From Chrysophaeum taylorii (Eukaryota; Sar; Pelagophyceae; Pelagomonadales; Pelagomonadaceae), in NCBI GenBank assembly GCA_029834535.1, contig JAQMWT010000309.1, forward strand, positions 434,001 through 498,000: DNA of 64,000 nt, in the 5' to 3' direction. The position numbers and the translations under genes were made by a program. Below the pieces are notes generated by a model. It was not told the origin of the DNA. It searched no databases and saw only the letters and a list, made by a program, of their open reading frames with translations. Numbering within the stretch: position 1 is the first letter of the stretch; the number at the start of each line of letters is the position of its first letter. This document shows, piece by piece, positions 1 to 22,460 of this stretch.

Positions 1-3000
1 TCGGCATGTTCCAGCATAGCGCGTCCCCATTGCCACTGATTCCATGCACGCGACATGGTGCTCAGTCGCAAGCGGCTTGCCACGCGAGCCATGCTTGCTA
101 GCCCAGCAGTTTGGCGAGCTTGGGCATGCGACTGCGAGAGGCGGTCCAGATCTTCAGACCTTAACGACTCGTAGTCCTCGATGAGAAGTTGTTGTATTGT
201 GACACAACGCCATCGACTCATTGCTTTCCCGACACTGCCACGGACGATATGTGTGAACGCGCGAGCGATAGCACCAGAGCCCGCTTGTCTTACAACGCTA
301 GCTGTATGCTCGATGGTATCGGCATGTTCCAGCATCGCGCGCCCCCACTGCCACTGATTCCACGCACGCGACATGGTGCTCAGTCGCAATCGGCTTGCCA
401 CGCGAGCCATGGCTGTAAGGCTAGCAGCTTGGCGAGTATGGGCATGCGACTGCGAGAAGTGGTCCAGCTCTTCCGACATCATTGTCTTATAGCTTTCGAC
501 GAGACGTTCTTGCATTGCGGCGCAACGCCATTGATAAAGTGCTTTCCCAACATTGGTGCGAGTGATATGTGCAAACGTGCGTGCGATGGCATCGGAGCCG
601 GCAAGCTTGACTGAGCTCTTCGTATGTTCGACTGCATCGGCATGTTCCAGCATAGCGCGTCCCCATTGCCACCGACTCCAAGCACGCAACTTTGTTCTCC
701 GTCGCAGGCGACATGCCACGCGAGCCATGGTTTCCAGCCCAGCAGCTTGGCGAGTTTCGGAATGCGACTGAGAGAGGCGTTCAAGTTCCTCCAATCTTAA
801 CGTCTCGTTGTACTCGATCGCAGCTTCGTATTCCTCGACGAGATGTTGTTGCATCACAACCCAATGCCATCGATTAATTGCATTCACGACACTGTTACGA
901 TGGAAGCGTGCCAGCGCACGCGCTAAAGCACTGCAGCCCGCGAGCCTGACTGCTTTGTGCGTTTGCTTGATCGCATCGGCATGATCCAGCATAACGCGTC
1001 CCAATTGCCACTGACTCAAAGCACGCGACATTGTGCTCAGTCGCAGCCGACTCGCCATGTGAGCCAAGGTTGCCAGACCAGCAGCTTGGCAAGTTTGGGC
1101 ATGCGACTGAGAGAGGCGGTCAAACTCTTCCGACCTCAAAGTTTCGTAGTTTTCGTCAAGACGTTGTCGCATAACGGCGCAACGCCATCGATAAAGTGCT
1201 TTACCAACACTAGTGCGACCAATACGTGCGAACGCACGAGCAACGGCACCGGAGCCGGCGAGCTTGACGGCGCCCTGCGTGCTCTCGATCGCATCGGCAT
1301 GTTCCAACATCGCGCGTGCCCATTGCCACTGATTCCATGTACGCGACATGATACTTAGTCGCTGGCGACTTGCCACGCGCGCCATGGTTGCCAGCCCAGC
1401 AGCTTGGCGAGTTTCGGCATGCGACTTCGAGAGGCGGTCCAGCTCTTCAGACCTAAACGACTCGTAGTCCTCGAATAGAATTTGTTGTGTTGTGGCGCAA
1501 CGCCATCGACACAGTGCTTTCCGGACACTGCCACGAACGATATGTGAGAACGCGCGAGCGATAGCACCAGAACCCGCTTGCCTGACCAAGCTTTCTGTAT
1601 GCTCGATGGTATCGGCATGTTCCAGCATCACGCGCCCCCATTGCCACTGATACCACGCATGCCACATGGTGCTTAGTCGCAGGCGACTTGCCACGCGAGC
1701 CATGGTTGCCAGTCCACCAGCTTGACGAGTTTCGACATATGACTGAGAGAGACGGTCAAGCTCCCTCAATCTCAGTGCCTCGTAGTTATCAATCGCATTT
1801 CCGTGCTCGTTAACAAGATGCTGTCGCATCACGGCCCAACGCCATTGATTGATTGCTTTCCCGATAATGGGACGACGGTGACGAGTGAACGCACGAGCGA
1901 TAGCACCGGAGCCGGCGAGCCTGACGGCGCTCTGGGATTGCTCGACTGCATCGGCATGTTCCAGCATCGTGCGCACCCATTGCCATTGATTCCAAGCACA
2001 CCACATTGTGCTCAGTCGCAGGTGACTCGCAACGCGAGCTAAGATTGCCAGCCCAGCAGCTTGGCGAGCTTTGGCATGCGACTCAGAAATGCAGCCAAGC
2101 TCTTCTGACCTCAACGCCTTGAAGCTCTCGATCGCATTTTCGTGCTCCTCGACCAGTTGCTGCCACATCGTGGCGCAACGCCATCGACGCAGTGCTTTCG
2201 TAACACTGCTACAATGGAATCGTGCGAACGCACGTGCGATAGAAGCGGAGCCCGCGACCCTGAACGCGCTACGCGTGCGCTCGATCGCATCGGCATGTTC
2301 CAGCATAGCGCGTCCCCATTGCCACTGATTCCATGCACGCGACATTGTGCTCAGTCGCAGGCGACATGCCACGCGAGCCATGGTTTCCAGCCCAGCAGCT
2401 TGGCGAGTTTCGGAATACGACTGAGAGAGGCGTTCAAGTTCCTCCAATCTTAACGTCTCGTTGTACTCGATCGCAGCTTCGTATTCCTCGACGAGATGTT
2501 GTTGCATCACAACCCAATGCCATCGATTCATTGCATTCACGACACTGTTACGATGGAAGCGTGGGAGCGCACGTGCTAAAGCACCGCAGCCCGCGAGCCT
2601 GACTGCGTTGTGCGCATGCTCGATTGCATCGGCATGTTCCAGCATAGCGCGCTCCCATTGCCACTGAATCCATGCACGCGACATGGTGCTCATTCGCAGG
2701 CGGCTTGCCAGACGACCCATGGTTGCCAGCCCAGCAGCTTGGCAAGTTTGGGCATGCGACTGAGAGAGGCGGTCAAACTCCTCCAATCTTAACGTCTCGT
2801 TTATCTTGATCGTAGCTTCGTGTTCCTCGACGAGATGTTGTTGCATCACGACCCAATGCCATTGATTCATAGCATTCATGACACTCTTACGATGGAAACG
2901 TGCGAGCGCACGTGCCATAGCACTGGAGCCCGCGAGCCTGACGATGCTCTGCTTGTGCTCAATCGCATCGGCATGTTCCAGCATCGCACGTATCCATTGC

Positions 3001-4660: not shown

Positions 4661-7600
4661 CAGTTTTGCCCAAAGAAGCCATTGCCCGCCAATGCCGGAA
4701 TCTGGTTGTTACATAGATTCGAAGCCCTTTCGAGAGCATGGTATGTGCCAACACGATGGCCGCGTGTAGCCGCGTGGCACGCAGTTCGTGCTTAAGCTCA
4801 TCTTCTCGCGATTTCAGGACATTGAGGCTCAGCTCTGCTTGAGCACGTGCTTCCTTTTGCTCGGCCAGAGCCGCCTCGATGTCTTCGTGATTCCGCCGCG
4901 CATCCTCCAAGCTTGTAGACAGGGCCTCAACCTGCTTCAAGTACTTGTTTCGCATGTGCTCGAGAACCGTCTTGTGTGTTGAGTTGAGTTCCTGTTGGTC
5001 TTCGTCGCGTCGCCTTCGTAGCTCGTGGCACCGCTCGTCGCACCGCTCGTGGATTGCTACCCAACGCCATCGAGTCAAATATCGCGCAACGTAAGCGTGA
5101 CCAATCCTCGCTGCAGCGAGAGCCAGAACACGCTGACCTGCTGTTTTCTTGGTATTCACGCAAGAACGTTGCTGTTCCGCGGAATCACTGACTATTTCGG
5201 CGACCTCTTTGGCGTGGGCGGATTTCAGCTGTGAGAGCTCGATATTATGCGTCCGACTCATTTCGTCCGCAGCCGCGCTCAGCGCCTTGAGTTCTTCTTG
5301 AGTTCTACCTACCACGAGCACCGACCACCACCGCGTCAAAGCGCGCGTCAACCTAACGTTTACTATTCGTGAGCTTGCACGTATGATGGTCGCCGAGGCT
5401 ATCCGTCGTGCGGCGGCATGTTTCTCTGCTCTGATTGCGTTGAGCTCATTGTCATGAGAAGTTGACTGTCTGGTAAGATCGTCGTCACGGACGCGATTCA
5501 TTTCTTCCACTACTGCTTCCAAATTCATGGCGTGTGCAGCCGCAAGTTTGAGTTCAAGTTCGTATTGCGTTCGTTGCATTGCTAACGTGGACTGCCACTC
5601 GCTCAATGCTTGCGCCAACCCACCTCGGATCATTCGCGAAGCTGCTCGAGCGATGACTCTGGAAGCCATGCGTTGGTGTTGCGCACATTTGATGCAGAGT
5701 TCAATTTTGTGTGAATTCGTGACTCGGGTGAGTGCATCGGCATGAGATCTATTCATCTCGTTCACAGTCGCTTCCAGCTCCTCAGTATGCAAGTTCTCTA
5801 GTTGATCGAGATTTTCTTGGTTGCGTTGCTGCGTGACTGCAGATCGCCACTGGTTCATGGCGCTTGTCACTCTGCCCTTTATCGTTCGCACGCACGCTCG
5901 GGCGATACTCGCGACCGAAACTTGTTGAATCATCGACTTCTGCGCGGTCTCCTTCGAGTCGCACAACGCACTGAGTTCACTGTCGTAAGCGGCAGTTAGC
6001 CGCGCGAGGTCGTCGGCATGGGCTTGGTGTATCTCGTTAGCAGCTTTTTCCAATTTTTGAAAGTGCATAAGCTCGTCCCGCTCAAGTACGACCACAGACT
6101 TCCACTCTTTAATCGCGTCAAATAACTTGCCTTTCCGCATGCGCAAAACTGACCGACCGATGCGTCGCGCTGCAGCGCGGTGAGTTGCGACCGTCCTCTC
6201 AGCCTTCTCACTCTCGCGTGCACTCGCGAGGTCCAAGAGTTTGGCTGTGTGTTCGTCCGAGACTCTAGCAAGCTTAGCGGTCATCTCGTCGACAGTCGCT
6301 CGCAGTTTCTCGGAGTGCATACTCTCCTGTGCGTCGAGGCATTCTTCGGTGCGCAGCACTGTGAGGGCAGATCGCCACTGCATTACGGCGCGAAAGAGCC
6401 CGCCCTTCACCAGTCGCAGGACTGCTCGAGCCACGCATGTAGCCGCTGCGTGCTCTGCGAGCGCTTTCTTCTCGGCTTCTTTCGAATCACGCAATTCGCA
6501 AAAGGCGCTGTCGTGAGCAGTGGCAAGTCGTTGTAGCTCTTCGGCGTGAGCTTCCGCTTTTTGTGCTACTGCTGCTCGCACCCTGTTCTCGTGTGTGATC
6601 GCTAGTTTTTCCACGCTTCGTTGCTGAGCAATCACGAGATACCACTGCATCATGGCCTGCGTCAATCCGCCCTTCTGCATGCGAGAGAACGATCCCGAAA
6701 GGCTCCCAATAGCTGCACGATACATGATGGCTCTTTGCTCGATGTCCTTCGTTGCGAGCTCAGCCGCATGCGTACTCGCGAGTTGCGAACACACTTCTGC
6801 ATTATCCGCTGTGAGTTTCGCGAGCGAAAGTTCGTGCGATTTTGTGAAGAGGTTAAGCTGTTCTTGGTGTGTTTGGCGCATCTCGTCGACAGCCGCTCGC
6901 ACCTCCTCGGCGTACGTACCGTTAAGCTTGTCAAGGTGCTCTTGCGTGCGCTGTAGCGAAAGTACAGAACGCCACTGCATAACAGCACGTGCGAGCCTAC
7001 CCTTGACCACTCGCGAGAGTGCTCGAGCCACGCTCGCAGCTGCCGCGCTCTGCGCTATGCCATTCATCTCCGCTTGAGTGGACTTGCGCAAGGCCTCGAG
7101 TTCACTCTCGTGAGTTGTTACGAGTTGCGATAGCTCGCACGCATGGGCTGCACTCATCGCATCAGCAGCTGCTCGAAGGTTTCGTGTATGCACACGTTCA
7201 AGCTCTTCTTCGAAATGCTGCTCTGCGAGCACAACGCGCCACTGGTTCATTGCCTTCGACAAATCCCCTTTCTGCACTCGCCACAAGAATCGGGCGAGGC
7301 TCCCAATGGCTGAGTGATGCAGAGCAGCTCCCCTCTCAGCGTCTTTGCTGGCGAGCTCGGCCGTGTGCGTGCTCGCAAGTTGCGCGCGCTCTTCGGCACT
7401 CGCCATCGCAAGTTTCATCAGCGAGCGTTCGTGAGCTCGCATGAGCTTATCGAGCTTCTCATCTTCTGTCCGGCGCATCTCATCGACAGTCGCTTGCAGC
7501 TCCTCAGCGTGCGCAGTGTTTAGCCCGTTAAGTTTCTCCTGAGTGTGAAGCTGTGCGAGCAAAAAGCACCACCGGTTCAGCGCGTGTGACAACCTAGCTT

Positions 7601-10600
7601 TTAGCATTCGCACCAGTGCTCGAGCTACGATTGCAGCTGCTGCGGCCTCGATCTCTGCCTGCTTTGATTTTCGCAGCGCTCCTAGTTCGCTTTCGTGAGT
7701 TGAAGCGAGCTGCGATAGCTCGCCGGCATGGGCTGCACTCATCACACTGGCAGCTTCATGAAGTTCCTGTGTGCACACTCTCTCGAGCTTTTCTTCGACA
7801 CGCTGTTGCGCAAGCATAAGGCACCACTGGTTCATGGCCTTCGACAAATCCCCTTTCTGCATTCGCCACAAGAATCGGGCGAGGCTCCCAGAGGCTGAGT
7901 GATGCAGCACGGCTCTTCTCTCAGCGTCCTTGCTGGCGAGCTCGGCCGCGTGCGTGCTCGTAAGTTGCGCGCGCTCTTCGGCACTTGTCGTGGCGAGGTT
8001 CGTCAGCGCGTGTTCGTGAGCTCGCATGAACTTATCGAGCTTCTCATCTTCTATCCGGCGCATCTCATCGACAGTCGCTTGCAGCTCCTCAGCGTGCGCA
8101 GTGTTTAGCCCGTTAAGTTTCTCCTGAGTGTGAAGCTGTGCGAGCAAAAAGCACCACCGGTTCAGCGCGTGTGACAACCTAGCTTTTAGCATTCGCACCA
8201 GTGCTCGAGCTACGATTGCAGCTGCTGCGGCCTCGATCTCTGCCTGCTTTGATTTTCGCAGCGCTCCTAGTTCGCTTTCGTGAGTTGAAGCGAGCTGCGA
8301 TAGCTCGCCGGCATGGGCTGCACTCATCACACTGGCAGCTTCCTGAAGTTCCTGCGTGCACACTCTCTCGAGCTCTTCTTCGACACGCTGTTGCGCAAGC
8401 ACAAGGCACCACTGGTTCAAGGCCTTCGACAAATCCCCTTTCTGCATTCGCCACAGGAATCGGGCGAGGTTTCCAATGGCTGAGTGATGCAGCACGGCTT
8501 TTCTCTCAGCGTCCTTGCTGGCGAGCTCGAATGTGTGCGTGCTCATAAGTTGCGCGCGCTCTTCAGCACTTGCAGTCGCGAGGTTCGTCAGCGAGCGTTC
8601 GTGAGCTCGCATGAGCTTATCGAGCTTCTCATCTTCTGTCCGGCGCATCTCATCGACAGTCGCTTGCAGCTCCTTAGCGTGCGCAGTGTTTAGCCCGTTA
8701 AGTTTCTCCTGAGTGTGAAGCTGTGCGAGCAAAAAGCACCACCGGTTCAACGCGTGTGACAATCTAGCTTTTAGCATTCGTACAAGTGCTCGAGCTACGT
8801 TCGCAGCTGCTGCGGCCTCGATCTCTGCCTGCTTTGATTTTCGCAGCGCTCCTAGTTCGCTTTCGTGAGTTGAAGCGAGCTGCGATAGCTCGCCGGCATG
8901 GGCTGCACTCATCACACTGGCAGCTTCCTGGAGTTCCTGTGTGCACACTCTCTCGAGCTTTTCTTCGACACGCTGTTGCGCAAGTATAAGGCACCACTGG
9001 TTCATGGCCTTCGACAAATCCCCTTTCTGCATTCGCCACAAGAATCGGGCGAGGCTCCCAGAGGCTGAGTGATGCAGCACGGCTCTTCTCTCAGCGTCCT
9101 TGCTGGCGAGCTCGGCCGCGTGCGTGCTCGTAAGTTGCGCGCGCTCTTCGGCACTTGTCGTGGCGAGGTTCGTCAGCGAGCGTTCGTGAGCTCGCATGAG
9201 CTTATCGAGCTTCTCATCTTCTATCCGGCGCATCTCATCGACAGTCGCTTGCAGCTCCTCAGCGTGCGCAGTGTTTAGCCCGTTAAGTTTCTCCTGAGTG
9301 TGAAGCTGTGCGAGCAAAAAGCACCACCGGTTCAGCGCGTGTGACAACCTAGCTTTTAGCATTCGCACCAGTGCTCGAGCTACGATTGCAGCTGCTGCGG
9401 CCTCGATCTCTGCCTGCTTTGATTTTCGCAGCGCTCCTAGTTCGCTTTCGTGAGTTGAAGCGAGCTGCGATAGCTCGCCGGCATGGGCTGCACTCATCAC
9501 ACTGGCAGCTTCCTGAAGTTCCTGCGTGCACACTCTCTCGAGCTCTTCTTCGACACGCTGTTGCGCAAGCACAAGGCACCACTGGTTCAAGGCCTTCGAC
9601 AAATCCCCTTTCTGCATTCGCCACAGGAATCGGGCGAGGTTTCCAATGGCTGAGTGATGCAGCACGGCTTTTCTCTCAGCGTCCTTGCTGGCGAGCTCGA
9701 ATGTGTGCGTGCTCATAAGTTGCGCGCGCTCTTCAGCACTTGCAGTCGCGAGGTTCGTCAGCGAGCGTTCGTGAGCTCGCATGAGCTTATCGAGCTTCTC
9801 ATCTTCTGTCCGGCGCATCTCATCGACAGTCGTTTGCAGCTCCTTAGCGTGCGCAGTGTTTAGCCCGTTAAGTTTCTCCTGAGTGTGAAGCTGTGCGAGC
9901 AAAAAGCACCACCGGTTCAACGCGTGTGACAATCTAGCTTTTAGCATTCGTACAAGTGCTCGAGCTACGTTCGCAGCTGCTGCGGCCTCGATCTCTGCCT
10001 GCTTTGATTTTCGCAGCGCTCCTAGTTCGCTTTCGTGAGTTGAAGCGAGCTGCGATAGCTCGCCGGCATGGGCTGCACTCATCACACTGGCAGCTTCCTG
10101 GAGTTCCTGTGTGCACACTCTCTCGAGCTTTTCTTCGACACGCTGTTGCGCAAGCATAAGGCACCACTGGTTCATGGCCTTCGACAAATCCCCTTTCTGC
10201 ATTCGCCACAAGAATCGGGCGAGGCTCCCAGAGGCTGAGTGATGCAGCACGGCTTTTCTCTCAGCGTCCTTGCTGGCGAGCTCGAATGTGTGCGTGCTCA
10301 TAAGTTGCGCGCGCTCTTCGGCACTTGTCGTGGCGAGGTTCGTCAGCGCGTGTTCGTGAGCTCGCATGAGCTTATCGAGCTTCTCATCTTCTGTCCGGCG
10401 CATCTCATCGACAGTCGCTTGCAGCTCCTCAGCGTGCGCAGTGTTTAGCCCGTTAAGTTTCTCCTGAGTGTGAAGCTGTGCGAGCAAAAAGCACCACCGG
10501 TTCAGCGCGTGTGACAACCTAGCTTTTAGCATTCGCACCAGTGCTCGAGCTACGATTGCAGCTGCTGCGGCCTCGATCTCTGCCTGCTTTGAGTTTCGCA

Positions 10601-13600: not shown

Positions 13601-16600
13601 CGGTTTGCATCCGCGAAGCGACGCGAGCAATGGTTCCCGCGGCCGTGTGCCTGCTGGCTGCTCTCCTCTCACTTTCTCTTATGCTGAGTTCACTTTCTTG
13701 ATTCGCCGAAAGCCGTGCGAGCTCGTTGGTGTGGGCTTGGCCCATCGCAGCCACAGCAGCTTCCAGCTTTAGAGAATGAGCAATATGGACGCGCTGATAA
13801 AAAACCACAAGCCTCCACTGCGTCACAGCACGCACCAATCTGCCTTTCAGGAGACGATTGACAGCATGACAGATGCTGCAAGTGGCCGCCCGGTCTGCGA
13901 GCTTTGTGGTCTCTCGTGTCTGTGAATCGCTCAAGCTGCCTAGCTCAGGTATGTGAGCGCCACTCGGCGGAGTGACTTCGTCCGCATAGCTCGATCGCAT
14001 CCTCTCCATCATATCCTCGCGAGACTGCTTGATGCCGCGCAGGTCGTCGTTGGTGTGAGACTCGCGGAATTCCTCGGCGAGTCGCAGTTGAAGCATGGCC
14101 CGTCGCCACTGATTCCAAGCGCGCACCACGTCGCGTTCACGCAGCCTCGACGCGACGCGCACCAAATTCATCAATGCGGCTCGTCTCTCTGACGCTCGCA
14201 TTCGCGTCTCTTGATACTCAATAGCCTCCTGGTGCGACAGGGTCATGCCTTCCACTTCCAGCCGGTGCTCATCCACGAGCTCTTGTTGCAACGCGATCTC
14301 GCGTGAAAGGCGTTGCTGCATCAACAACCCACGCCAACGACTCAGCGCTCGTGTGACACCTCTCCGATGGAGGCGAGCGAGAGCGCGAGCAATCGCTCCT
14401 GAGCCTGCGACGTTGACAACGCTGGTCTGCGCTCTCGCGATGGACTTCTCGTTATCCGCTGCCAACTTAGCTACGGTCCTACAGAGCGCCGTCGACATTT
14501 TCCAGACATGAAATGATGCCGCAAAGTTGCTTCGCCTGCCGTGCGACAGCATGTTTTGGGCTATGGTAGATGCGGCGTAGAGCCGTGTTGCCACGAGATG
14601 GGCGTTTGAGTCGACGTCTTGCGACACGGCCGTAGCACGGAACTCGGCTTCGAGTTGTGCGAGCTGCGCTTTGTACTGCGCATCCTTGTAGTGTAGCTTG
14701 GATTCCAGAGAGAGAACACTTTCGCGATGATGCTTTGCTTCTTCTTCACTCTTTGAGCGCGTCAAATCGAGATGCTCTAATTCCACTTTGTGAGTTGCCA
14801 AGAGTCGAGCCTCTACGTCTCGAATAGCCTTGTCACAGTCGCGCTTATGGTCTTCGTGCACACGCTTGATTTGGCGCTCGTGCTGCAACTCGCACTCGTG
14901 CCTCGTGCGCTCGAGGCGGGCTTCGTTGAGCACTCGCAGCGATTCCAGCTGTTCCTCCCGAAGCAAAGCCGCGTCGGCCAGCGCCTTGGCGTGCGCCTCT
15001 TGGCACGAGACGAGTTCGGCCTTGTGTCGTTCCTCGAGCTCTGCGACGAGCGCGCGAAAAGCCTCGTCGCGGTCTCGGCGACTCTGGGCCCAGTCGCCGG
15101 TCTGACTGTCAAATGCCTCGGTCAACTCTCTCTGGTGCTTAATGTTTTGGTTTCGCAGCTCTTCGCGGTGGGAGGCTTTGACTTGCTCGAGCTCATCTTG
15201 AAGCGCCAGCACGTGCCGTTCCAGCGAAGCGTCGTGGTCGGCTTTGAGCGCCGCCAGTTGGTCTGAGAATGCAGCGTGCAGCTCGGAGAGCATTGTCTCC
15301 TGTTCCCGCTCGCGCTGCACGTATTCGTCTCCGCGAGATCGCAACGTGGACGCGTGCTCTTGCGTCAGCGCGGCGAGCTCGAGGTCACGAGTTGAATTGA
15401 GCTGGTCGACACGAGTCGCGTGCACCGCCGCGAGGGCGGCCAGAGCGGCGTCCTTGTCGTGTCGATGCGCATCGATGGCGGCATCGTACCGGCGGCGATG
15501 CTCCTCGAGTGCCCGCGATTCAACCGAGGCCAACGACTCGGCGTGGGTCGCACTCAAGCGAGCGAGCTCCGAAGCATGCCGTCGCTTGATACGTTCCATG
15601 GCTGCTACCAAGTGGTATTGGAACGTCGTGACCAAGCGCCATAGGTTCCACGCTCGCGAGAGGCCACCCCCTTTGTTGTGCATTCTCGCGAGACCGCGCG
15701 CGATGTTGTCCAACCCCGCTACTTTGGAGACGGCAAGCCTCGCCTTTTCGATCGCAGCACACTTGTCGGCATCAAGCTCAACGAGTCGTCGTTCGACCGC
15801 CGCAACCACCTTCCACACGTGAAAGCAGCGTCCAAGAACCGTCATCGAGGGTAGTCGGGGTGCCGAGAGGAACCCTTCTGCGACAATGCTCGCCGCCGCG
15901 ACGCGCGCCGAGAGCAACCGAGATTCGGCATCAGCACCTAGAGTCAGGAGTTTCGACTCGGCCTCAGCGAGAGCTGTCTCGTGCGTTTGATCTCGCTCGG
16001 CGAGAGCCACTTCCAGCGCCGCCGCATGAGTGGCCTCGGTCTCGGCCAAAACGCGTTGGTGATGCGCTCCAGCTCGCGACAATTCAGACTCGAATGAAAT
16101 CGCCAGAGCCTCCGTTTCGGCTTCGCGTGCTTTGCGCTCGAGGCCAACCGCAGCCTCAATTGCCTTTTTCTCGTGCTCGTCTCGCGTCGCGAGATTGAGT
16201 TCGTGCTGCGCCGTCAACTCGTCGTGGAGCTGCCGGACGTGCTCGTCCCTGAGCACCGCAGCGCGCTCCTTGGCGGTGGCGATCTCTGCCATGTGCAGAG
16301 CGCGAGACGATTCGAGCTGCTCTTCGTACACTCCGGACTGGGCCGCGAGCTCGGCCTCGTGACGCGCCTCGAACTCGTCGACCATCGCGCGACGCTCCTC
16401 CGCGTGTGTCCTCAACGCCGCTGCCAGTTTCTGCGAGTGTTGGACGTCCTTCTCGGCCTCAACCATCCCGATCGCAGCCGCCAGCTGCTGCTCGTGTTTG
16501 AGCTCGAGCGCTTCGATGCGCCGCTCGTACGCCTCGCGGAGTTCGGCCAACTCCTGGTCATGGGTCTCGAGCAGTGCGTCCCTTTGACGCGCAAGACCGG

Positions 16601-19600
16601 CCTTGGCCCGCGCCGCGAGCTCGAGCTCGCGAGTCCCGAGCGTGGCGTCGTAGTCGTCGTCGCGCGCGTGCAGCAAAGCGCGGCACGCGGTGACGCGCTC
16701 GCGTTCGAGGTGCGTCGCAGTCGCGGATGCCTCGAGTTCGACCTCGAATCGCTTTTCCATTGCTGCCTTTTGCATTTTGAACCGATCCTCGGCGTCGGCG
16801 AGCTCGCGGGCAGCGGCGTCGCGCGTCTCGCGCATAGCATCGCGGTGTTGTGCAAGGAGCTGGGTCTCGGCGGTGGTGCGCTCCGCTGCGAGGATGGTTG
16901 CTTGGTGTCGGAGTGCGTTCTCGAGCTCGACCTGGGCCGCGGCCTTGACAATCACAAGCTCGTGATCGGCGGCGCTCGCGTGCTCGATCGCCTCCTGCAC
17001 GGCCACGTCGTGCCGCTGAGCTTCGGCGACGCGCGCGTCGTGTTGTGCCCCGAGCTCTCTCACGACCTCGCTATGGCGGTTGACGAGGTCAGCCCTCAGC
17101 GCGTCGAGCGCCGCTTCGTGCTCCTCGTCTCGTTTCTTCAACGCCGCGGCGAGTTCGTTCGCGTGTTTGGCTTGGCTCTCCAGAGCCGCGAGCTCGGCGA
17201 CCGTCCGTTTGTCGACCTCGTGCTGGCGTCGAAGCAACTCGAGCTGGCCTTCGAGGTGCGCGACAGCGCTCTGCGTCGCGCTCTCGATAGCCTGCTGCGT
17301 AGTCTTCGCGTGCGTTCTAGAGAGCTCGCGCTCGCGCGCCTCGAGAAACGAAGCATGCTCGCGATCGCGCACACGAAGTGCCTCGAGGAGCCGTGCCTGG
17401 TGCTCCTTATCACTTTCGAGTCTGGCCTTCTCGACGGCGCGTGCGAGCTCCGCGCGGTGCCGGTGCTCGGCGCGAGCCAGCGCGTCGTCGCGTGACGCTA
17501 GAAGCGCGTGATCGTCGAGATCGCGCGAAGCCAAGAGAACGAGCTTTTCGCGATCAAGGATTTCGGCATGTTGCGCGACGAGCGTGGCAACGCACTGGTC
17601 CATCGCACGCGCGTGCTCGTCATCGCGCCGCTTCACGGCCTCGGCGACGGCCGTGTCGACCAATGCGCGTAGCTCCTCGTCGCGTGACGAGCGCAGGTCC
17701 TCGAGCGCGAGCTCGTGCGAGGCTCGAAGCGCCGACACCTCAGCAGCGTGATAGTCACCGACTCGCTCGAGCTCTTTCAATTGCCGTTCGTGGAGGTCGT
17801 GCTGGATATCCTGGCTCGCCTTGCGCTCTCGGTCGAGTGCCTCCGAGAGCGACGAAAGCTCGTCGTTCAGGCGGTATCGCTTCTCGTCCTGCTCCTTTGC
17901 CCCGCCGCGCAACGCTGCGTTGTGCGATGCCTCGCGAGCTTCGAGAGCGAGCTCGTGCTCCGCCTTGGCCTCCTCCAGCGCCTCCTCTAGAAATTTCTGG
18001 CGCTCTTCGTGCTCGACCCGAGCATGCGAGACCGTTTCTGCAACGAGTTGCTCGTACACTTCCTTCTGTGCGGCCAACGCGCGAGAGTGGTCGGCCTCGG
18101 ATCTCACCACGAGCTGCTCATACTCCTCCTTTTGTATGGCCAAATCGCGAGCGTGCTCGGCCTGCGCGCGAGCGGCTGCAGCCGCCAGGACGAGCATGTC
18201 GTGTTCCGCAATCGAAATGTGAGTTGAGGGCAACTCGCTCGCTAGCGCGGCGCCTCCTTTTTCGGAGACGTGCGTCATCACCAGGTCCGCGGCTTCGGTC
18301 GTCGATGCCGTCGCCGCCTCGTCTTGCACCGAATCCGCGGCATCGGTCGTCGTTGCCGTCGCCGCCAAAGGAGATTCCACTTGCTCGTCTTTGGACGATG
18401 CCACCAAGGCATGTCCGGCTTCCCCGTTTTGTCGTGTCGTCCGCTCGACCACCGCCGCGACGTGCTGGTCGTGCTGGTGCACTTTCCTGGAGCAAACAAG
18501 GATCTCGGCGACGATCTGGTCGTGATCGTCTCTCGAGATGAACGACCGAGCGTGTGCGAGCGCCTCCTCGTGCTCTTCCTTCTTGGAAGCAAGGTTCTCG
18601 TCGCCTTCGCTACGTGCTCGGGACACTGCAGGCGCGAGTAGCTTGGCATGCTCCTCCCTTGGTAGATAGTTGGCTGCGATATCATCGTAGACCTCGCGCT
18701 TTGTGAGCTCGACTGCGTCGGCGACAGGCTGCTCGCGTTTTTCGAGGTCTCCCTGCGTGGCGCGTGCGAGCGTATCCACGACGATCTTCTCGTGCGAGAC
18801 AGACGACCGAGCTTGCGCCAGCACTGCCTCGTGTTCCTCTTTGAGTACATACTTAGCAGCGATGGTCTCATCGTTGTCCTCAATCGCGCGTGCAACAGCT
18901 GCGGCCAGCGCCATCGCGTGCTCGTCGCGCCCTTGTGCCACGGCAGCTTCAAGTACTTTGCCGTGTTCGTCGTGAGCTCGTGCCACAGCAGCCTCGAGGA
19001 GTACAGCATGTTCCTCTTTAGAATGGAAATTAGCGGCGATGTGGTCCTCATACTCTCGTTTCGTGCGCCCGACTGCCTCCGCAACGTGCTGCTCGCGGCG
19101 CTCGAGATGTTGGCGGTCGAGATCTTCCCCGTGCTCTTGCAGCAAGCGAGCGTGCTCATCTCTTGGGATAGTCGACGCTGCTATCTCAGCGAGCGCCTTC
19201 TCGTGTTCTTCTTTGAGAACGAAGTTAGCTGCGAGTGCCTTGCCGTGTTCGTCGTGAGCTCGTGCCACAGCAGCCTCGAGGAGTACAGCATGTTCCTCTT
19301 TAGAATGGAAATTAGCGGCGATGTGGTCCTCATACTCTCGTTTCGTGCGCCCGACTGCCTCCGCAACGTGCTGCTCGCGGCGCTCGAGATGTTGGCGGTC
19401 GAGATCTTCCCCGTGCTCTTGCAGCAAGCGAGCGTGCTCATCTCTTGGGATAGTCGACGCTGCTATCTCAGCGAGCGCCTTCTCGTGTTCTTCTTTGAGA
19501 ACGAAGTTAGCTGCGAGTGCCTTGCCGTGTTCGTCGTGAGCTCGTGCCACAGCAGCCTCGAGGAGTACAGCATGTTCCTCTTTAGAATGGAAATTAGCGG

Positions 19601-22460
19601 CGATGTGGTCCTCATACTCTCGTTTCGTGCGCCCGACTGCCTCCACAACGTGCTGCTCGCGGCGCTCGAGATGTTGGCGGTCGAGATCTTCCCCGTGATC
19701 TTGCAGCAAGCGAGCGTGCTCATCTCTTGGGATAGTCGACGCTGCTATCTCAGCGAGCGCCTTCTCGTGTTCTTCTTTGAGAACGAAGTTAGCTGCGAGT
19801 GCCTTGCCGTGTTCGTCGTGAGCTCGTGCCACAGCAGCCTCGAGGAGTACAGCATGTTCCTCTTTAGAATGGAAATTAGCGGCGATGTGGTCCTCATACT
19901 CTCGTTTCGTGCGCCCGACTGCCTCCGCAACGTGCTGCTCGCGGTGCTCGAGATGTTGGCGGTCGAGATCTTCCCCGTGATCTTGCAGCAAGCGAGCGTG
20001 CTCATCTCTTGGGATAGTCGACGCTGCTATCTCAGCGAGCGCCTTCTCGTGTTCTTCTTTGAGAACGAAGTTAGCTGCGAGTGCCTTGCCGTGTTCGTCG
20101 TGAGCTCGTGCCACAGCAGCCTCGAGGAGTGCAGCATGTTCCTCTTTAGAATGGAAATTAGCGGCGATGTGGTCCTCATACTCTCGTTTCGTGCGCCCGA
20201 CTGCCTCCACAACGTGCTGTTCGCGGCGCTCGAGATGTTGGCGGTCGAGATCTTCCCCGTGATCTTGCAGCAAGCGAGCGTGCTCATCTCTTGGGATAGT
20301 CGACGCTGCTATCTCAGCGAGCGCCTTCTCGTGTTCTTCTTTGAGAACGAAGTTAGCTGCGAGTGCCTTGCCGTGTTCGTCGTGAGCTCGTGCCACAGCA
20401 GCCTCGAGGAGTACAGCATGTTCCTCTTTAGAATGGAAATTAGCGGCGATGTGGTCCTCATACTCTCGTTTCGTGCGCCCGACTGCCTCCGCAACGTGCT
20501 GCTCGCGGTGCTCGAGATGTTGGCGGTCGAGATCTTCCCCGTGATCTTGCAGCAAGCGAGCGTGCTCATCTCTTGGGATAGTCGACGCTGCTATCTCAGC
20601 GAGCGCCTTCTCGTGTTCTTCTTTGAGAACGAAGTTAGCTGCGAGTGCCTTGCCGTGTTCGTCGTGAGCTCGTGCCACAGCAGCCTCGAGGAGTAAAGCA
20701 TGTTCATCTTTTGAATGGAAATTAGCGGCGATATGGTCCTCGTATTCCTTTCTCGTCTTCTCGACCGCCTCCGCAACGTGCTGCTCGCGGCGCTCGAGAT
20801 GTTGGCGGTCGAGATCTTCAACGTGCGCGCGAAGAGCAAGTGCGCGTGTCTCTCGAGCCTCGGACAACACAGCCTCGTGCTCTTCTCTAAGCATATAGTT
20901 AGCGGCGAGCGTATCCTCGTAATCGTCCCGCACTTGTGCCACGGCAGCTTCGAGTCCAGCCTCGTGCTCCTCCTTGAGCACGTACTCGGCAACGATTGCC
21001 TCCTCACGCTCGTCTCTCGCTCGCGCCGCCGCAGCTTGGAGGAGCTCGGCGTGCTCGTCCTTCGAAACATAGTTAGCGGCAATGTGGTCGTCGTACTCTT
21101 GTTTGGTCCGCTCGATCGCTTTTGCAAGGTCGTGCTCGCGTTGCTCCTGGAGCGCGGTCTCTCGAGCTTCAGACAGCAGCGCCTCGTGGTAGTTGCGCGG
21201 CACGTACGCGGTCGCGAGGGCCTCCTCGTGCTCGGCTCGCACCCGTGCCACGGCAGCCTCGTGGTCTTCCTTAGGCACAAAATTCGCGGCGATGCGACGC
21301 TCGTACTCCCGGGTGGTCTGCTCAACTTGGTCGTCGCGGTCATCGCGCCTTGGCTGCTGCTGCTGCTGCTGATGCTCGAGCTCGGCCACGAGACTTTTCT
21401 TTTGGAGGAAAGCGCGTTGGACCTCCTCGCGCGCCCTCTCGAGATCGGCTTGATGGTGCTGCTCCAGGGAGTCGCGGAGGTGCTGGACGGCCTTGCGGTG
21501 TCGCGCGCAGAGCGTGTCTTCCAAAGCCCTCAGGGCCTCGGCGTGGGCGTCGTCGAGGCCTCGAATCGCTGCCCGGAGACGATCATCGTCCTGGCTGCCA
21601 CCACCCTCAAAGTGTTGTTGCTGCTGCTGCGAGTCCTTGAATGCCCGGAGCGCCTCGTCGCGCGCCGCCTCGAGCTCTTGTCGCTGCGCGGCCAGCGATG
21701 CCTCGTGGTCGGCGCGAGTCATTAGACCCAGGAGGTGCGGCGGCGCGACCGAGCGGTCGCACGCTCGCTCCGAAGCCTGGACGAGGTCGACGAAAGCGTC
21801 GCGCTCGGCCATCGCTGTCTCGAGCTGCGCGCGCATCGCCCGGAGCTCGACGGCGTGCGCGGCCTCGCAGCTCTGGATGGCCTCGGCGATCGTTTGGCGC
21901 CTGACCACGGGCGACTGAAGCTCGGCCTCGTGCTTTCGCGCGAGAGCGTCGACCTGCGCCCTATGGAGATCCATGATCTCCCGGATATCCCTCTCGTGTG
22001 CCGCCGAGAGCTCGGCCCGCACGCGGGCCGTCGCGACGGCGTGGTCGCGGTCCTTGCGCTGCTCGGCGAGCTGCGCGGCGCGGCCGAGCTCGTCGGACAC
22101 GGAGGTCTTTATCTCTTCGCGACTCGGACTCGACAGCAATAGTTTTGCCACAAGGTCCTCGTGGCGCTGCGACATCGCCGCGAGCTCGCGGTTGTGCTGC
22201 CTCACGAGATCCGCCTTTTGCTCGGCGAGAAGCACGGCAACGTCCTCCTCTTCCTTGAAGTCTATTGTGATCGACTGTTGCGTTGTCTCGATCGTCTTGT
22301 GGACGCTGTCGACGGTCCGTTTCGTCGCCTCCTCGGCCGAACGGATGAGCTCGTCGAGGTCGTCGACCTCGAGGGGGGCGTCGACGAGCTCGGAGAAACG
22401 CTCCGTCGCGCGCCGGCGGATGTGCTCCACTTCCGCCGAGCGCTCCTCGCGCTCCTCCAT
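1..22460 (-). CDS. Giant Sfi1-like centrin-binding-repeat / coiled-coil protein (C-terminus beyond window)
   Basis: Seen: the ATG at 22460-22458 opens a frame that is the same frame read at the left edge, where Trp-Gly-Arg-Ala-Met of a repeat is cut. I found no in-frame stop, giving at least 7,486 codons without an intron. Residues 1 to ~2,200 are Glu/Arg/Ala/Leu-rich coiled coil with little Trp. From ~2,200 to the edge, a motif recurs about sixty times: Ala-x7-Leu then hydrophobic-x2-Trp-Arg/Lys (for example LSRAWNLWRLV, LSKAMNQWCLM). This fits the Sfi1 consensus for centrin binding. Spacing alternates ~45 and ~62 residues near the left edge and is ~97 residues in the middle. Known: Sfi1 forms centrin-coated filaments in yeast spindle pole bodies and in centrioles, with about twenty repeats. 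Inferred: a basal-body or flagellar-root filament protein. The gene is divergent from the next one across 96 bp. The frame stays open upstream of the ATG, but this is the only Met before the neighbour. Family call fairly sure; exact function not. Confidence 0.8.
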   Translation of the reverse strand, partial: MEEREERSAEVEHIRRRATERFSELVDAPLEVDDLDELIRSAEEATKRTVDSVHKTIETTQQSITIDFKEEEDVAVLLAEQKADLVRQHNRELAAMSQRHEDLVAKLLLSSPSREEIKTSVSDELGRAAQLAEQRKDRDHAVATARVRAELSAAHERDIREIMDLHRAQVDALARKHEAELQSPVVRRQTIAEAIQSCEAAHAVELRAMRAQLETAMAERDAFVDLVQASERACDRSVAPPHLLGLMTRADHEASLAAQRQELEAARDEALRAFKDSQQQQQHFEGGGSQDDDRLRAAIRGLDDAHAEALRALEDTLCARHRKAVQHLRDSLEQHHQADLERAREEVQRAFLQKKSLVAELEHQQQQQQPRRDDRDDQVEQTTREYERRIAANFVPKEDHEAAVARVRAEHEEALATAYVPRNYHEALLSEARETALQEQREHDLAKAIERTKQEYDDHIAANYVSKDEHAELLQAAAARARDEREEAIVAEYVLKEEHEAGLEAAVAQVRDDYEDTLAANYMLREEHEAVLSEARETRALALRAHVEDLDRQHLERREQHVAEAVEKTRKEYEDHIAANFHSKDEHALLLEAAVARAHDEHGKALAANFVLKEEHEKALAEIAASTIPRDEHARLLQDHGEDLDRQHLEHREQHVAEAVGRTKREYEDHIAANFHSKEEHAVLLEAAVARAHDEHGKALAANFVLKEEHEKALAEIAASTIPRDEHARLLQDHGEDLDRQHLERREQHVVEAVGRTKREYEDHIAANFHSKEEHAALLEAAVARAHDEHGKALAANFVLKEEHEKALAEIAASTIPRDEHARLLQDHGEDLDRQHLEHREQHVAEAVGRTKREYEDHIAANFHSKEEHAVLLEAAVARAHDEHGKALAANFVLKEEHEKALAEIAASTIPRDEHARLLQDHGEDLDRQHLERREQHVVEAVGRTKREYEDHIAANFHSKEEHAVLLEAAVARAHDEHGKALAANFVLKEEHEKALAEIAASTIPRDEHARLLQEHGEDLDRQHLERREQHVAEAVGRTKREYEDHIAANFHSKEEHAVLLEAAVARAHDEHGKALAANFVLKEEHEKALAEIAASTIPRDEHARLLQEHGEDLDRQHLERREQHVAEAVGRTKREYEDHIAANFHSKEEHAVLLEAAVARAHDEHGKVLEAAVAQGRDEHAMALAAAVARAIEDNDETIAAKYVLKEEHEAVLAQARSSVSHEKIVVDTLARATQGDLEKREQPVADAVELTKREVYDDIAANYLPREEHAKLLAPAVSRARSEGDENLASKKEEHEEALAHARSFISRDDHDQIVAEILVCSRKVHQHDQHVAAVVERTTRQNGEAGHALVASSKDEQVESPLAATATTTDAADSVQDEAATASTTEAADLVMTHVSEKGGAALASELPSTHISIAEHDMLVLAAAAARAQAEHARDLAIQKEEYEQLVVRSEADHSRALAAQKEVYEQLVAETVSHARVEHEERQKFLEEALEEAKAEHELALEAREASHNAALRGGAKEQDEKRYRLNDELSSLSEALDRERKASQDIQHDLHERQLKELERVGDYHAAEVSALRASHELALEDLRSSRDEELRALVDTAVAEAVKRRDDEHARAMDQCVATLVAQHAEILDREKLVLLASRDLDDHALLASRDDALARAEHRHRAELARAVEKARLESDKEHQARLLEALRVRDREHASFLEARERELSRTHAKTTQQAIESATQSAVAHLEGQLELLRRQHEVDKRTVAELAALESQAKHANELAAALKKRDEEHEAALDALRADLVNRHSEVVRELGAQHDARVAEAQRHDVAVQEAIEHASAADHELVIVKAAAQVELENALRHQATILAAERTTAETQLLAQHRDAMRETRDAAARELADAEDRFKMQKAAMEKRFEVELEASATATHLERERVTACRALLHARDDDYDATLGTRELELAARAKAGLARQRDALLETHDQELAELREAYERRIEALELKHEQQLAAAIGMVEAEKDVQHSQKLAAALRTHAEERRAMVDEFEARHEAELAAQSGVYEEQLESSRALHMAEIATAKERAAVLRDEHVRQLHDELTAQHELNLATRDEHEKKAIEAAVGLERKAREAETEALAISFESELSRAGAHHQRVLAETEATHAAALEVALAERDQTHETALAEAESKLLTLGADAESRLLSARVAAASIVAEGFLSAPRLPSMTVLGRCFHVWKVVAAVERRLVELDADKCAAIEKARLAVSKVAGLDNIARGLARMHNKGGGLSRAWNLWRLVTTFQYHLVAAMERIKRRHASELARLSATHAESLASVESRALEEHRRRYDAAIDAHRHDKDAALAALAAVHATRVDQLNSTRDLELAALTQEHASTLRSRGDEYVQREREQETMLSELHAAFSDQLAALKADHDASLERHVLALQDELEQVKASHREELRNQNIKHQRELTEAFDSQTGDWAQSRRDRDEAFRALVAELEERHKAELVSCQEAHAKALADAALLREEQLESLRVLNEARLERTRHECELQHERQIKRVHEDHKRDCDKAIRDVEARLLATHKVELEHLDLTRSKSEEEAKHHRESVLSLESKLHYKDAQYKAQLAQLEAEFRATAVSQDVDSNAHLVATRLYAASTIAQNMLSHGRRSNFAASFHVWKMSTALCRTVAKLAADNEKSIARAQTSVVNVAGSGAIARALARLHRRGVTRALSRWRGLLMQQRLSREIALQQELVDEHRLEVEGMTLSHQEAIEYQETRMRASERRAALMNLVRVASRLRERDVVRAWNQWRRAMLQLRLAEEFRESHTNDDLRGIKQSREDMMERMRSSYADEVTPPSGAHIPELGSLSDSQTRETTKLADRAATCSICHAVNRLLKGRLVRAVTQWRLVVFYQRVHIAHSLKLEAAVAAMGQAHTNELARLSANQESELSIRESERRAASRHTAAGTIARVASRMQTARLWRALNHWRIVVELWRSHETHAHKLQAIADEMTEAHRVELDQLANTHDMAIKTIEFESLRMARHGAVGRITRTLTRMLKAGLWQAIYQWRYAAALRHRNEKLDASLNAMSEDHANYLIRLTDSHQSDLKAKETEARAAVQNVAAMYLARSVLTMQRCAMLCAINRWCLWLAQLHLQHEHENLQTQKLRAVENVMSAAHADELLQLASIHETKLGALLNSKQAEIKATAAASVTRAVSRVLTSGVARGLKKWKAVLALLRTQEQLNEIETVNAERLRASVNEMRQTHDDKLGQLKNAHDLSLRKLATAMAEERAHLTNTHEAEIATKGAERRSILRRSAILSLTRSVSRMHKGELSRATNQWRIVLAKQRSNEQVRAHEKQMRAILSESSEAHASELVRLARAHDSDLGELLASKDAERKALAHRAAATGVAHTVARMMKSGVARAVIQWKSALVLLRTRKQLEDNETMKAEKMRATVEGLHQTYNEKLDQLANAHELSLTKLSTTSAEARAQLASAHAAEVTSKDTKLRAIVHRAGIGSLARWFSRLQKGEFSWAMNQWRLVMAQERIKEKLRKVHTQELEAAANVMSAVHAGELSQLASTHECELQALRNSKQAEIRATAAAIVARAVSQILNGRLARAVTRWRSMLVLLRTQERFDEKDSIHAERLQATVDEMHQTQDYKLYQLAKVHESSLTKLATASAEERAQLAITHAAQLAAKDAERRAIMHCSAIGSLARSVSQMLKDGLLRAMNQWRHVLAQQNVHEEIRSVYVQRHEAQATLMSAAHVGELSQLASTHESELEALRKSKQAEIKTAAAANLARALVRMLKARLTHVMDWWGFVLAQLRTQEKLNGLKTAHAEKLQATVDEMRRTEDEKLDKLMRAHERSLTNLATASAEERAQLMSTHTFELASKDAERRAVLHHSASGSLARFMWRMQKGDLSKAMNQWCLMLAQQRVEEKLERVCTQELQEAASVTSAAHAGELSQLASTHESELGALRNSKQAEIEAAAAAIVARALVRMLKARLSHALNRWCFLLAQLHTQEKLNGLNTAHAEELQATVDEMRRTEDEKLDKLMRAHEHALTNLATTSAEERAQLMSTHTFELASKDAERKAVLHHSASGSLARFLWRMQKGDLSKAMNQWCLMLAQQRVEEKLERVCTQELQEAASVMSAAHAGELSQLASTHESELGALRKSKQAEIEAAAAANVARALVRMLKARLSHALNRWCFLLAQLHTQEKLNGLNTAHAKELQTTVDEMRRTEDEKLDKLMRAHERSLTNLATASAEERAQLMSTHTFELASKDAERKAVLHHSAIGNLARFLWRMQKGDLSKALNQWCLVLAQQRVEEELERVCTQELQEAASVMSAAHAGELSQLASTHESELGALRKSKQAEIEAAAAAIVARALVRMLKARLSHALNRWCFLLAQLHTQEKLNGLNTAHAEELQATVDEMRRIEDEKLDKLMRAHERSLTNLATTSAEERAQLTSTHAAELASKDAERRAVLHHSASGSLARFLWRMQKGDLSKAMNQWCLILAQQRVEEKLERVCTQELQEAASVMSAAHAGELSQLASTHESELGALRKSKQAEIEAAAAANVARALVRMLKARLSHALNRWCFLLAQLHTQEKLNGLNTAHAKELQATVDEMRRTEDEKLDKLMRAHERSLTNLATASAEERAQLMSTHTFELASKDAERKAVLHHSAIGNLARFLWRMQKGDLSKALNQWCLVLAQQRVEEELERVCTQELQEAASVMSAAHAGELSQLASTHESELGALRKSKQAEIEAAAAAIVARALVRMLKARLSHALNRWCFLLAQLHTQEKLNGLNTAHAEELQATVDEMRRIEDEKLDKFMRAHEHALTNLATTSAEERAQLTSTHAAELASKDAERRAVLHHSASGSLARFLWRMQKGDLSKAMNQWCLMLAQQRVEEKLERVCTQELHEAASVMSAAHAGELSQLASTHESELGALRKSKQAEIEAAAAAIVARALVRMLKARLSHALNRWCFLLAQLHTQEKLNGLNTAHAEELQATVDEMRRTEDEKLDKLMRAHERSLMKLAMASAEERAQLASTHTAELASKDAERGAALHHSAIGSLARFLWRVQKGDLSKAMNQWRVVLAEQHFEEELERVHTRNLRAAADAMSAAHACELSQLVTTHESELEALRKSTQAEMNGIAQSAAAASVARALSRVVKGRLARAVMQWRSVLSLQRTQEHLDKLNGTYAEEVRAAVDEMRQTHQEQLNLFTKSHELSLAKLTADNAEVCSQLASTHAAELATKDIEQRAIMYRAAIGSLSGSFSRMQKGGLTQAMMQWYLVIAQQRSVEKLAITHENRVRAAVAQKAEAHAEELQRLATAHDSAFCELRDSKEAEKKALAEHAAATCVARAVLRLVKGGLFRAVMQWRSALTVLRTEECLDAQESMHSEKLRATVDEMTAKLARVSDEHTAKLLDLASARESEKAERTVATHRAAARRIGRSVLRMRKGKLFDAIKEWKSVVVLERDELMHFQKLEKAANEIHQAHADDLARLTAAYDSELSALCDSKETAQKSMIQQVSVASIARACVRTIKGRVTSAMNQWRSAVTQQRNQENLDQLENLHTEELEATVNEMNRSHADALTRVTNSHKIELCIKCAQHQRMASRVIARAASRMIRGGLAQALSEWQSTLAMQRTQYELELKLAAAHAMNLEAVVEEMNRVRDDDLTRQSTSHDNELNAIRAEKHAAARRIASATIIRASSRIVNVRLTRALTRWWSVLVVGRTQEELKALSAAADEMSRTHNIELSQLKSAHAKEVAEIVSDSAEQQRSCVNTKKTAGQRVLALAAARIGHAYVARYLTRWRWVAIHERCDERCHELRRRRDEDQQELNSTHKTVLEHMRNKYLKQVEALSTSLEDARRNHEDIEAALAEQKEARAQAELSLNVLKSREDELKHELRATRLHAAIVLAHTMLSKGLRIYVTTRFRHWRAMASLGKTVEKHADEIEHTRRVIRLAGSGAIVRAFARLGRESIANAMNRWRWATTRQHLIEEHEIAIEINEMLRSEELDRLSQSHVEARQAARLATMARVGSRLRLSTMSRAWNEWQLRRAMLVYADAIEHTYSVAKHAGSSAIARALARLQRAGITNAMYRWRWATMRQHLLEEHEVAIEHFEASKSEELDRLSKSHIEARQSAGLASLTGFASRLRLSTLSRAWNQWKWGHAMLEQADAIERTQNVVRLAGSGAVARAFVRRLHRSSVARALSRWRCATMRQHLVANYEALRLEELDRLSQSHAKARQSAGLAISAHVVSRLRLNSMSRAWNQWQWGRAMLEHADAIEHTQSAVRLAGSGAIACAFARLRRTRIAKALHGWRWATMQQHLLEDHEIAIENFESLRFEELDRLSQSHAETRQAAGLLTMARVACRLRLSKMSRAWNQWQWGRAMLEHAAIIERTQRGVKVAGSGATARVFTRRCRANISKALNRWRLAAMRQQMTEEHENAIENFEASRLEELDCISESHAKARRATGLATLARVASHLRLSTVWSAWNQWQWIRAMLEHADAIEHKQSIVRLAGSSAMARALARFHRKSVMNAMNQWHWVVMQQHLVEEHEATIKINETLRLEEFDRLSQSHAQTCQAAGLATMGRLASRLRMSTMSRAWIQWQWERAMLEHADAIEHAHNAVRLAGCGALARALPRFHRNSVVNAMNRWHWVVMQQHLVEEYEAAIEYNETLRLEELERLSQSYSETRQAAGLETMARVACRLRLSTMSRAWNQWQWGRAMLEHADAIERTRSAFRVAGSASIARAFARFHCSSVTKALRRWRCATMWQQLVEEHENAIESFKALRSEELGCISESHAKARQAAGLAILARVASHLRLSTMWCAWNQWQWVRTMLEHADAVEQSQSAVRLAGSGAIARAFTRHRRPIIGKAINQWRWAVMRQHLVNEHGNAIDNYEALRLRELDRLSQSYVETRQAGGLATMARVASRLRLSTMWHAWYQWQWGRVMLEHADTIEHTESLVRQAGSGAIARAFSHIVRGSVRKALCRWRCATTQQILFEDYESFRSEELDRLSKSHAETRQAAGLATMARVASRQRLSIMSRTWNQWQWARAMLEHADAIESTQGAVKLAGSGAVARAFARIGRTSVGKALYRWRCAVMRQRLDENYETLRSEEFDRLSQSHAQTCQAAGLATLAHMASRLRLSTMSRALSQWQLGRVMLDHADAIKQTHKAVRLAGCSALARALARFHRNSVVNAINRWHWVVMQQHLVEEYEAAIEYNETLRLEELERLSQSHSETRQAAGLETMARVACRLRRRTKLRAWSRWQWGRAMLEHADAVEHTKSSVKLAGSDAIARTFAHITRTNVGKALYQWRCAAMQERLVESYKTMMSEELDHFSQSHAHTRQAASLTAMARVASRLRLSTMSRAWNQWQWGRAMLEHADTIEHTASVVRQAGSGAIARAFTHIVRGSVGKAMSRWRCVTIQQLLIEDYESLRSEDLDRLSQSHAQARQTAGLASMARVASRLRLSTMSRAWNQWQWGRAMLEHA
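7250..11050 (-). repeat. 585-bp (195-codon) tandem array, about 6.5 near-identical copies
   Basis: Equivalent positions fall at 7314, 7899, 8484, 9069, 9654, 10239 and 10824, exactly 585 bp apart. Each unit encodes two Sfi1-like Trp motifs (AMNQWCLML and ALNRWCFLL) and their coiled linkers. Copies differ by only a few bases, and alternate copies are the most alike (two-unit higher-order pattern), suggesting recent unequal exchange inside the gene. Confidence 0.9.
18958..20700 (-). repeat. 282-bp (94-codon) tandem array in the coiled-coil N-terminal part
   Basis: The (+) string ttgccgtgttcgtcgtgagc recurs at about 18958, 19240, 19522, 19804, 20086, 20368 and 20650, a strict 282-bp period. On the coding strand each unit reads as Ala/Glu/His/Arg-rich coiled coil, residues ~590-1,167 of the giant protein. 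Flanking units at 18,700-18,960 and 20,700-21,300 are diverged relatives. Confidence 0.9.

Follow-up and report, generated by a model that had tools for sequence, protein, structure and literature searches.

A 12,639-codon open reading frame in Chrysophaeum taylorii predicts a giant protein with an array of about 150 Sfi1-like motifs

The window, the whole 64,000-nucleotide stretch of Chrysophaeum taylorii DNA that was analysed (C309:434001–498000), contains the start of a very large open reading frame on its minus strand. The frame begins with an ATG at window position 22460 and stays open past the left edge. The following features were assigned (residues are numbered from this ATG):

1..22460, minus: giant open reading frame, in-window part; codons 1–7486 of 12,639, continuing to contig position 418541
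20784..22460, minus: charged N-terminal segment without Trp, residues 1–559
18711..20783, minus: 94-residue (282-bp) charged repeat found by TRF, seven copies, no Trp, residues 560–1250
15861..18710, minus: further charged, Trp-free segment with a hydrophobic period, residues 1251–2200
4671..15815, minus: middle Sfi1-like array, residues 2216–5930, 35 profile copies, 195-residue unit
3..4691, minus: distal Sfi1-like array, in-window start, residues 5924–7486, TRF period 339
24952..28926, minus: 1,324-residue frame with guanylate/adenylate cyclase and cyclic-nucleotide phosphodiesterase domains; a PH-like match is below the cut-off
31068..32339, plus: Arf-family GTPase domain with a Dpy-30-like motif ahead of it (E = 0.0013, below the cut-off)
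58697..60313, plus: frame matching the second helical-bundle domain of VCPO (E = 4.1e-15)

The cyclase–phosphodiesterase frame combines the synthesis and the breakdown of cyclic nucleotides in one predicted protein near the giant gene.

The earlier note had described an unbroken frame of at least 7,486 codons and proposed that the contig be extended leftwards to find its stop. Both points were borne out: the frame closes with a TAA at contig position 418541, which is 15,459 bases to the left of the window's first base, and the gene (C309:418541–456460) has 12,639 codons (37,920 bp including the stop; 12,856 codons from stop to stop) and contains no N. The remaining five frames across the same DNA have 225–420 stops apiece, which rules out chance, and the giant frame is almost certainly a real, single frame. 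Its start is uncertain, since one more in-frame ATG lies 83 codons upstream of the chosen one. An AATAAA is found inside an A-run within 50 bases past the TAA. The best explanation is one gene without introns, encoding a single 12,639-residue protein with a calculated mass of 1,428 kDa (≈1.43 MDa) and pI of 9.65; no intron is necessary for the frame. The view that the lack of introns over >22 kb is itself remarkable was weakened by the rest of the genome (70.8 Mb in 697 contigs searched), in which open frames with EF-hand matches reach 3,816 codons.

The predicted protein is best explained as an acidic, charged, coiled-coil-like head (residues 1–2200), followed by about 150 Sfi1-like motifs and a short basic tail. 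The head has no Trp and is highly charged (475 D/E vs. 299 K/R), with a hydrophobic period of about 3.65 in residues 60–560 and about 3.7 in residues 1300–2200. Between these segments, the 94-residue repeats (TRF period 282, 6.6 copies, 98% matches) start at residues 580, 674, 768, 862, 956, 1050 and 1144, and are ≈98–99% identical at the DNA level. The period peak of this array, 3.95, is at the edge of the scanned range, and a coiled coil is therefore not demonstrated for it. Prolines are nearly absent from the Trp-containing arrays, with nine in residues 2200–11480. AF2 models of two array pieces, made from alignments of the protein's own copies (19 of the 32 windows possible in the distal array and all 8 in the middle array), were predicted to be helical in 220 of 231 and 275 of 281 residues at low confidence (pLDDT 53 and 57; pTM 0.24 and 0.22), suggesting helical pieces with no confident tertiary arrangement. 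A Foldseek search with the low-confidence model returned a single match, with an E-value of 7.4.

The Trp motifs span residues 2216–12538. A home-made profile of 40 positions, based on 138 copies picked with a regular expression, detected 147 copies in the giant protein at a threshold of 5 bits (the weakest scoring 6.9 and 7.8 bits), a number that was judged from the assembled sequence and depends on the quality of the assembly. Of these, 35 are in the middle array, 102 in the distal array, which runs on beyond the left edge of the window as far as residue ≈11458, and 10 are C-terminal. The "about sixty" Trp motifs reported previously agree with the 63 copies that have their Trp inside the window; a further 84 lie to the left. 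Five additional, near-canonical [FL]xxW[KR] sites were found outside the profile copies. With the Trp set to 0 (position 1, so that −3 and −7 are positions 4 and 8, respectively), the Trp is present in all 147 copies, and bulky hydrophobic residues occupy −19 in 141, −12 in 138, −7 in 145 and −3 in 145. Residue −4 is Ala in 140 copies, and +1 is K/R in 74 and Gln in 51, while −8 is hydrophobic in only four. A relaxed inverted triad, with hydrophobic residues at −7 and −3, matched 155 times, compared to a mean of 19 and a maximum of 31 in shuffled sequences; in the opposite orientation, there were 30 matches, which is inside the shuffle range (mean 19.5, maximum 32). The published minimal centrin-binding motif, [FLW]xxW[KR] (PMC10180636), occurs 52 times (shuffle mean 6.3, maximum 13), or 4.1 times per 1000 residues, vs. 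0.43 in the other stop-to-stop frames of at least 150 residues, coding or not, at contig positions 384001–498000. By sequence, the array is one of inverted 1-4-8 centrin-binding triads in the Sfi1 orientation.

The 146 Trp–Trp intervals are dominated by a few values: 47 residues (47 times), 59 (34), 66 (17), 110 (11) and 85 (10), with 27 others. Most fall between 47 and 110 residues, and the smallest is 40. Intervals of 85 or 110 residues, which together give the 195-residue unit, account for 21 of the 34 in the middle array. In the distal array, autocorrelation peaks at exactly 106 residues, and this unit alternates with one of 113 (47 + 66). The intervals 59 and 66, and likewise 47 and 40, differ by seven residues, from which we do not claim a register, because the period of the Trp-free parts is nearer 11/3. 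Assuming a 33-residue footprint, spacings of 40–110 would leave 7–77 residues between putative centrins, so that a straight rod would not allow centrin–centrin contacts of the yeast type.

Two types of site alternate in the distal array. Trp is present at −3 in 49 of the 102 copies and absent there in 53, where Leu or Met is found in most cases, and neighbours share a type in only four of the 101 adjacent pairs. The spacing from the first to the second site is 47 residues, followed by 59 or 66, with few exceptions. Over the whole protein, 55 of 147 copies have Trp at position 4, and 39 of these 55 carry Met at position 8. Peptides from Toxoplasma that combine Phe or Trp at position 4 with Leu at position 8 bound centrin only with Ca2+, those with Val or Ile at position 8 were intermediate, and Trp-Leu-Leu peptides bound tightly with little sensitivity to Ca2+ (PMC9406199). 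The combination of Trp at position 4 and Met at position 8 is outside the peptide data encountered in that source. By analogy with these peptides, the distal sites with Trp at position 4 might load mainly in the presence of Ca2+ and the Leu/Met type more constitutively.

The motif copies are under purifying selection. In 1,261 of the 1,275 pairs formed by 51 distal units (those with dS > 0.02), the median dN was 0.205, the median dS 0.548 and the median dN/dS 0.40. For the six key motif positions, dN/dS was 0.04, 0.35, 0.34 and 0.17 in four classes of 45, 51, 8 and 10 copies, respectively, against 0.37, 0.53, 0.45 and 0.68 for the rest of the motif and 0.38, 0.47, 0.43 and 0.46 for the flanks; the conservation of the key positions is partly due to the choice of set, since the copies were gathered with a Trp-anchored seed, and Trp has no synonymous codon. 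The additional constraint on the key positions is mild in the Leu/Met-type copies (0.35 vs. 0.53) and in the 85-spaced copies (0.34 vs. 0.45).

The earlier note had proposed a filament of the Sfi1 type. The motifs themselves stood up, with the Trp in every copy and the triad far above shuffled sequences, while membership in the family did not. Pfam Sfi1 (PF08457) matched none of the five pieces into which the protein was divided at E-values up to 1 (all but four boundary residues covered), a result that speaks against membership and that the earlier note had itself named as one that would refute its proposal. The strict consensus Ax7LLx3[FL]x2W[KR] had no match in residues 2201–12560, and the core Lx3[FL]xxW[KR] had two, not above shuffled sequences (maximum 3). 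The repeated arrangement of Trp at position 1 and hydrophobic residues at positions 4 and 8 is present in the Sfi1 orientation, and a repeat period near 33 residues is absent. A profile of 39 of the 56 non-redundant copies retrieved no Sfi1 chain from PDB sequences, its one match being a calcium-channel chain (E = 0.98). When profiles were compared, its Trps aligned with those of the Pfam-Sfi1 protein that this genome encodes, at a probability of just 3.2%. We therefore do not file the giant protein as a member of the Sfi1 family. That it works like Sfi1 is the best reading of its sequence and is partly supported; that it is Sfi1 does not stand.

The genome does contain a separate, conventional Sfi1-type frame, C531:185678–186967, which was the sole match returned by the genome search with PF08457 (two candidates scored). 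In the six repeats compared, this frame resembles the giant array in having a hydrophobic residue at −3 in six and at −7 in four, but differs in that four of the six carry Phe at position 4 and that its Trp spacing is mostly 27–30 residues in the matched part. The giant-array profile found no match in it. EF-hand matches are located ≈10 kb from this frame, in a frame of 2,571 codons.

Several named Pfam and NCBIfam families matched the giant protein (all five pieces scanned with Pfam, three of five with NCBIfam), and were rejected as sums over repeats, because no single stretch passes alone and the best stretch has 24–50 residues. These were Gly_acyl_tr_C (whole-protein E-values of 1.8e-23, 3.6e-6 and 0.6 in three pieces), TRASH_HVO_1752_C (1.1e-9), NikR_C (1.8e-4, just over the cut-off), FPRL1_inhibitor, KATNA1_MIT and the amidase PRK06707 (7.1e-7); weaker matches were rejected as well.

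At ≥8 bits, the profile found no copies in other six-frame open reading frames of at least 40 residues at contig positions 384001–508000 or in C531:176001–196000, and two copies on contig C664. There, 345 bp at C664:318678–319094 are 98.8% identical to codons ≈11,023–11,137 of the giant frame, and a scan of the surrounding 30 kb gave no further motif copy; this looks like a recent, dispersed copy of a piece of the giant frame. A query with residues 2600–4100 from the middle array gave 62 matches in the genome, of which 61 were in the gene itself and one was the isolated C664 fragment, and a query with residues 1–1200 at E-values up to 1e-6 retrieved the giant gene only; no second full copy was found with these two queries. 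Of 53 pattern matches in IMG/VR, none was confirmed as a viral relative.

The genome encodes possible partners for such motifs. At least 146 EF-hand matches were found (150 of 388 candidates scored), and 25 EF-hand loci that were examined include at least four with centrin-like frames (on C551, C497 and two on C245). The best PDB matches of the centrin L022 are 3kf9 (Caltractin) and 3qrx (Centrin/Caltractin), and three of its four EF loops look canonical by eye. Calmodulin is present at two loci with the same 148-residue frame. Matches to radial spoke 3 (E = 9.7e-78) and SAS-6 (E = 1.0e-23) indicate that the host has, or had, flagella and centrioles. It also has 84 light-harvesting matches, five of them on the contig of the giant frame. 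Light-harvesting genes are clustered on C88, C539, C390 and others, and over a dozen have scores identical to the decimal. Contig C697 carries PsaA and PsaB and is presumably the plastid contig. For one light-harvesting protein and for PsaB, the best solved relatives are chains of 9ygv (229 vs. 210 bits for the next, and 1532 vs. 1524), which we take to be photosystem I of giant kelp (code given in PMC13219633). An ochrophyte host is accordingly the most likely, although PsaB entries that we take to be from cryptophytes and haptophytes scored only 0.7–2.3% lower.

We infer that the giant protein would be loaded with centrin, respond to Ca2+ and reside in the basal-body apparatus as an Sfi1-like filament of the rhizoplast type, a reading to which we assign a probability of about 0.6. 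Its parts differ in strength: the partner is probably of the centrin type, and the Ca2+-responsive, basal-body-associated fibre has somewhat less than an even chance. Each motif would form an amphipathic helix that buries its Trp, −3 and −7 residues in the C-lobe of a centrin, and a single molecule would form a rod carrying roughly 150 centrins. As a straight helix with a rise of 0.15 nm per residue, this rod could be up to ≈1.5 µm long for the array, or ≈1.9 µm for the whole protein. The heads would bundle molecules side by side, and Ca2+ would alter the occupancy or shape of the centrins, so that the fibre shortens or stiffens without ATP. In the presence of Ca2+, fibres of Sfi1p decorated with centrin are believed to coil up and become shorter, and the original source of centrin was the rhizoplast, which in some green algae connects the nucleus to the basal bodies (PMC6070942). 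Together with the span of 1.5–1.9 µm, this makes a rhizoplast or a similar connector between nucleus and basal body the preferred place. The basal-body ruler proposed in the earlier note is possible; a Ca2+-responsive fibre of the rhizoplast type fits at least as well.

A more specific version is doubtful: that the protein is the Ca2+-contractile backbone of a rhizoplast in this chlorophyll-c alga, a 1.4-MDa, ATP-free spring comparable to a ciliate myoneme, in which the alternating sites act as a cooperative switch. The Leu/Met-type sites would always be loaded, with neighbouring centrins held apart until Ca2+ fills every second site, those with Trp at position 4, leading to a cooperative contraction within one polypeptide.

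We considered the possibility that the protein is a purely structural, rootlet-like coiled-coil fibre, in which the Trp motifs pack against each other without an EF-hand partner. The Trp-free, charged head with its 94-residue repeats would suit such a fibre, as would the wide spacing, which, unlike in yeast, keeps centrins from touching on a straight rod. However, the hydrophobic positions obey the centrin triad, and in each of the four classes of copies the constraint on the six key positions exceeds that on the remaining motif, strongly so in two. We consider this explanation unlikely. It is also improbable that calmodulin or an EF-hand protein other than centrin is the partner of the motifs, which would make the protein a different kind of giant Ca2+-sensor scaffold. 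The two calmodulin loci and the many EF-hand matches would provide partners, and hydrophobic anchors on a basic helix suit the relatives of calmodulin generally, but a Trp at 0 with hydrophobic residues at −3 and −7 is the inverted 1-4-8 triad of centrin targets, and three IQ-type patterns each had no match in the 12,639 residues (shuffle means of 0.005, 3.0 and 2.9).

Expansion, collapse or a forced frame during the assembly of repetitive DNA is very improbable. Stretches of the giant frame are up to 99.9% identical over 900 bp (at a lag of 390 codons), as such an artefact might produce, but the longest exact repeat is between 500 and 700 bp, the 51 distal units have diverged to a median dS of 0.55, and the frame persists through unique and repeated parts alike, with no N. 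Spectrin-like three-helix repeats, which have a period of 106 residues and a conserved Trp, would match the distal autocorrelation peak, but can hardly be upheld, considering that the 106-residue unit alternates with 113, occurs in part of the protein and gives way to 195 in the middle array, that no spectrin family was among the matches of the five pieces at E-values up to 1, and that AF2 gave long helices without a confident fold, with the one poor Foldseek match.

The Sfi1-like, centrin-loaded filament can be compared with several known systems. The yeast Sfi1 consensus is AX7LLX3F/LX2WK/R, with 21 repeats at a period of 33 residues (PMC5112337; consensus also PMC8622359), and human Sfi1 binds up to ≈25 centrins (PMC5112337, PMC8622359). 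The giant protein shares with both an array, here predicted to be helical, of Trp motifs with a 1-4-8 triad, but has ≈150 motifs at a spacing other than 33, and matches neither the strict consensus nor the Pfam family. TgSFI1 of Toxoplasma resembles it in the invariant Trp, in Phe, Leu or Trp at position 4, in a variable, mostly Leu, position 8, and in having sites that differ in their dependence on Ca2+ (PMC9406199). It differs in having 32 sites, and the available text of that paper does not mention an alternation of site types.

The closest parallels in scale are found in ciliates. The "about twenty repeats" taken as a yardstick for Sfi1 in the earlier note overlook the giant scaffolds of protist myonemes, described as having hundreds of centrin or spasmin sites (PMC12661445). 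Like the giant protein, the scaffolds of the Spirostomum myoneme and PtCenBP1 of the infraciliary lattice of Paramecium (model in PMC6189993) are long, repetitive and thought to carry many centrins or spasmins, and their Ca2+-triggered shortening has a counterpart in the response proposed here. The host of the giant protein, by contrast, is a photosynthetic alga, and the spacing of mostly 47–110 residues, the two alternating site types and the Trp-free, charged head probably set it apart from the ciliate scaffolds. Literature on Sfi1 in algae, stramenopiles, rhizoplasts and giant centrin scaffolds (mostly non-subscription sources, at the level of titles and the beginnings of abstracts) contained no giant ochrophyte Sfi1-like protein, and the available rhizoplast-related text treats Sfi1p in general and names no algal scaffold gene. 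Giant centrin scaffolds are thus already known, and the novelty appears to lie in the host, the wide spacing, two types of site in strict alternation and a charged head that lacks Trp. The giant gene provides a concrete candidate for the scaffold of a fibre that is operated by calcium at the flagellar base. If this is true, giant centrin scaffolds are not a speciality of ciliates, but occur as a variant in a new branch of life.
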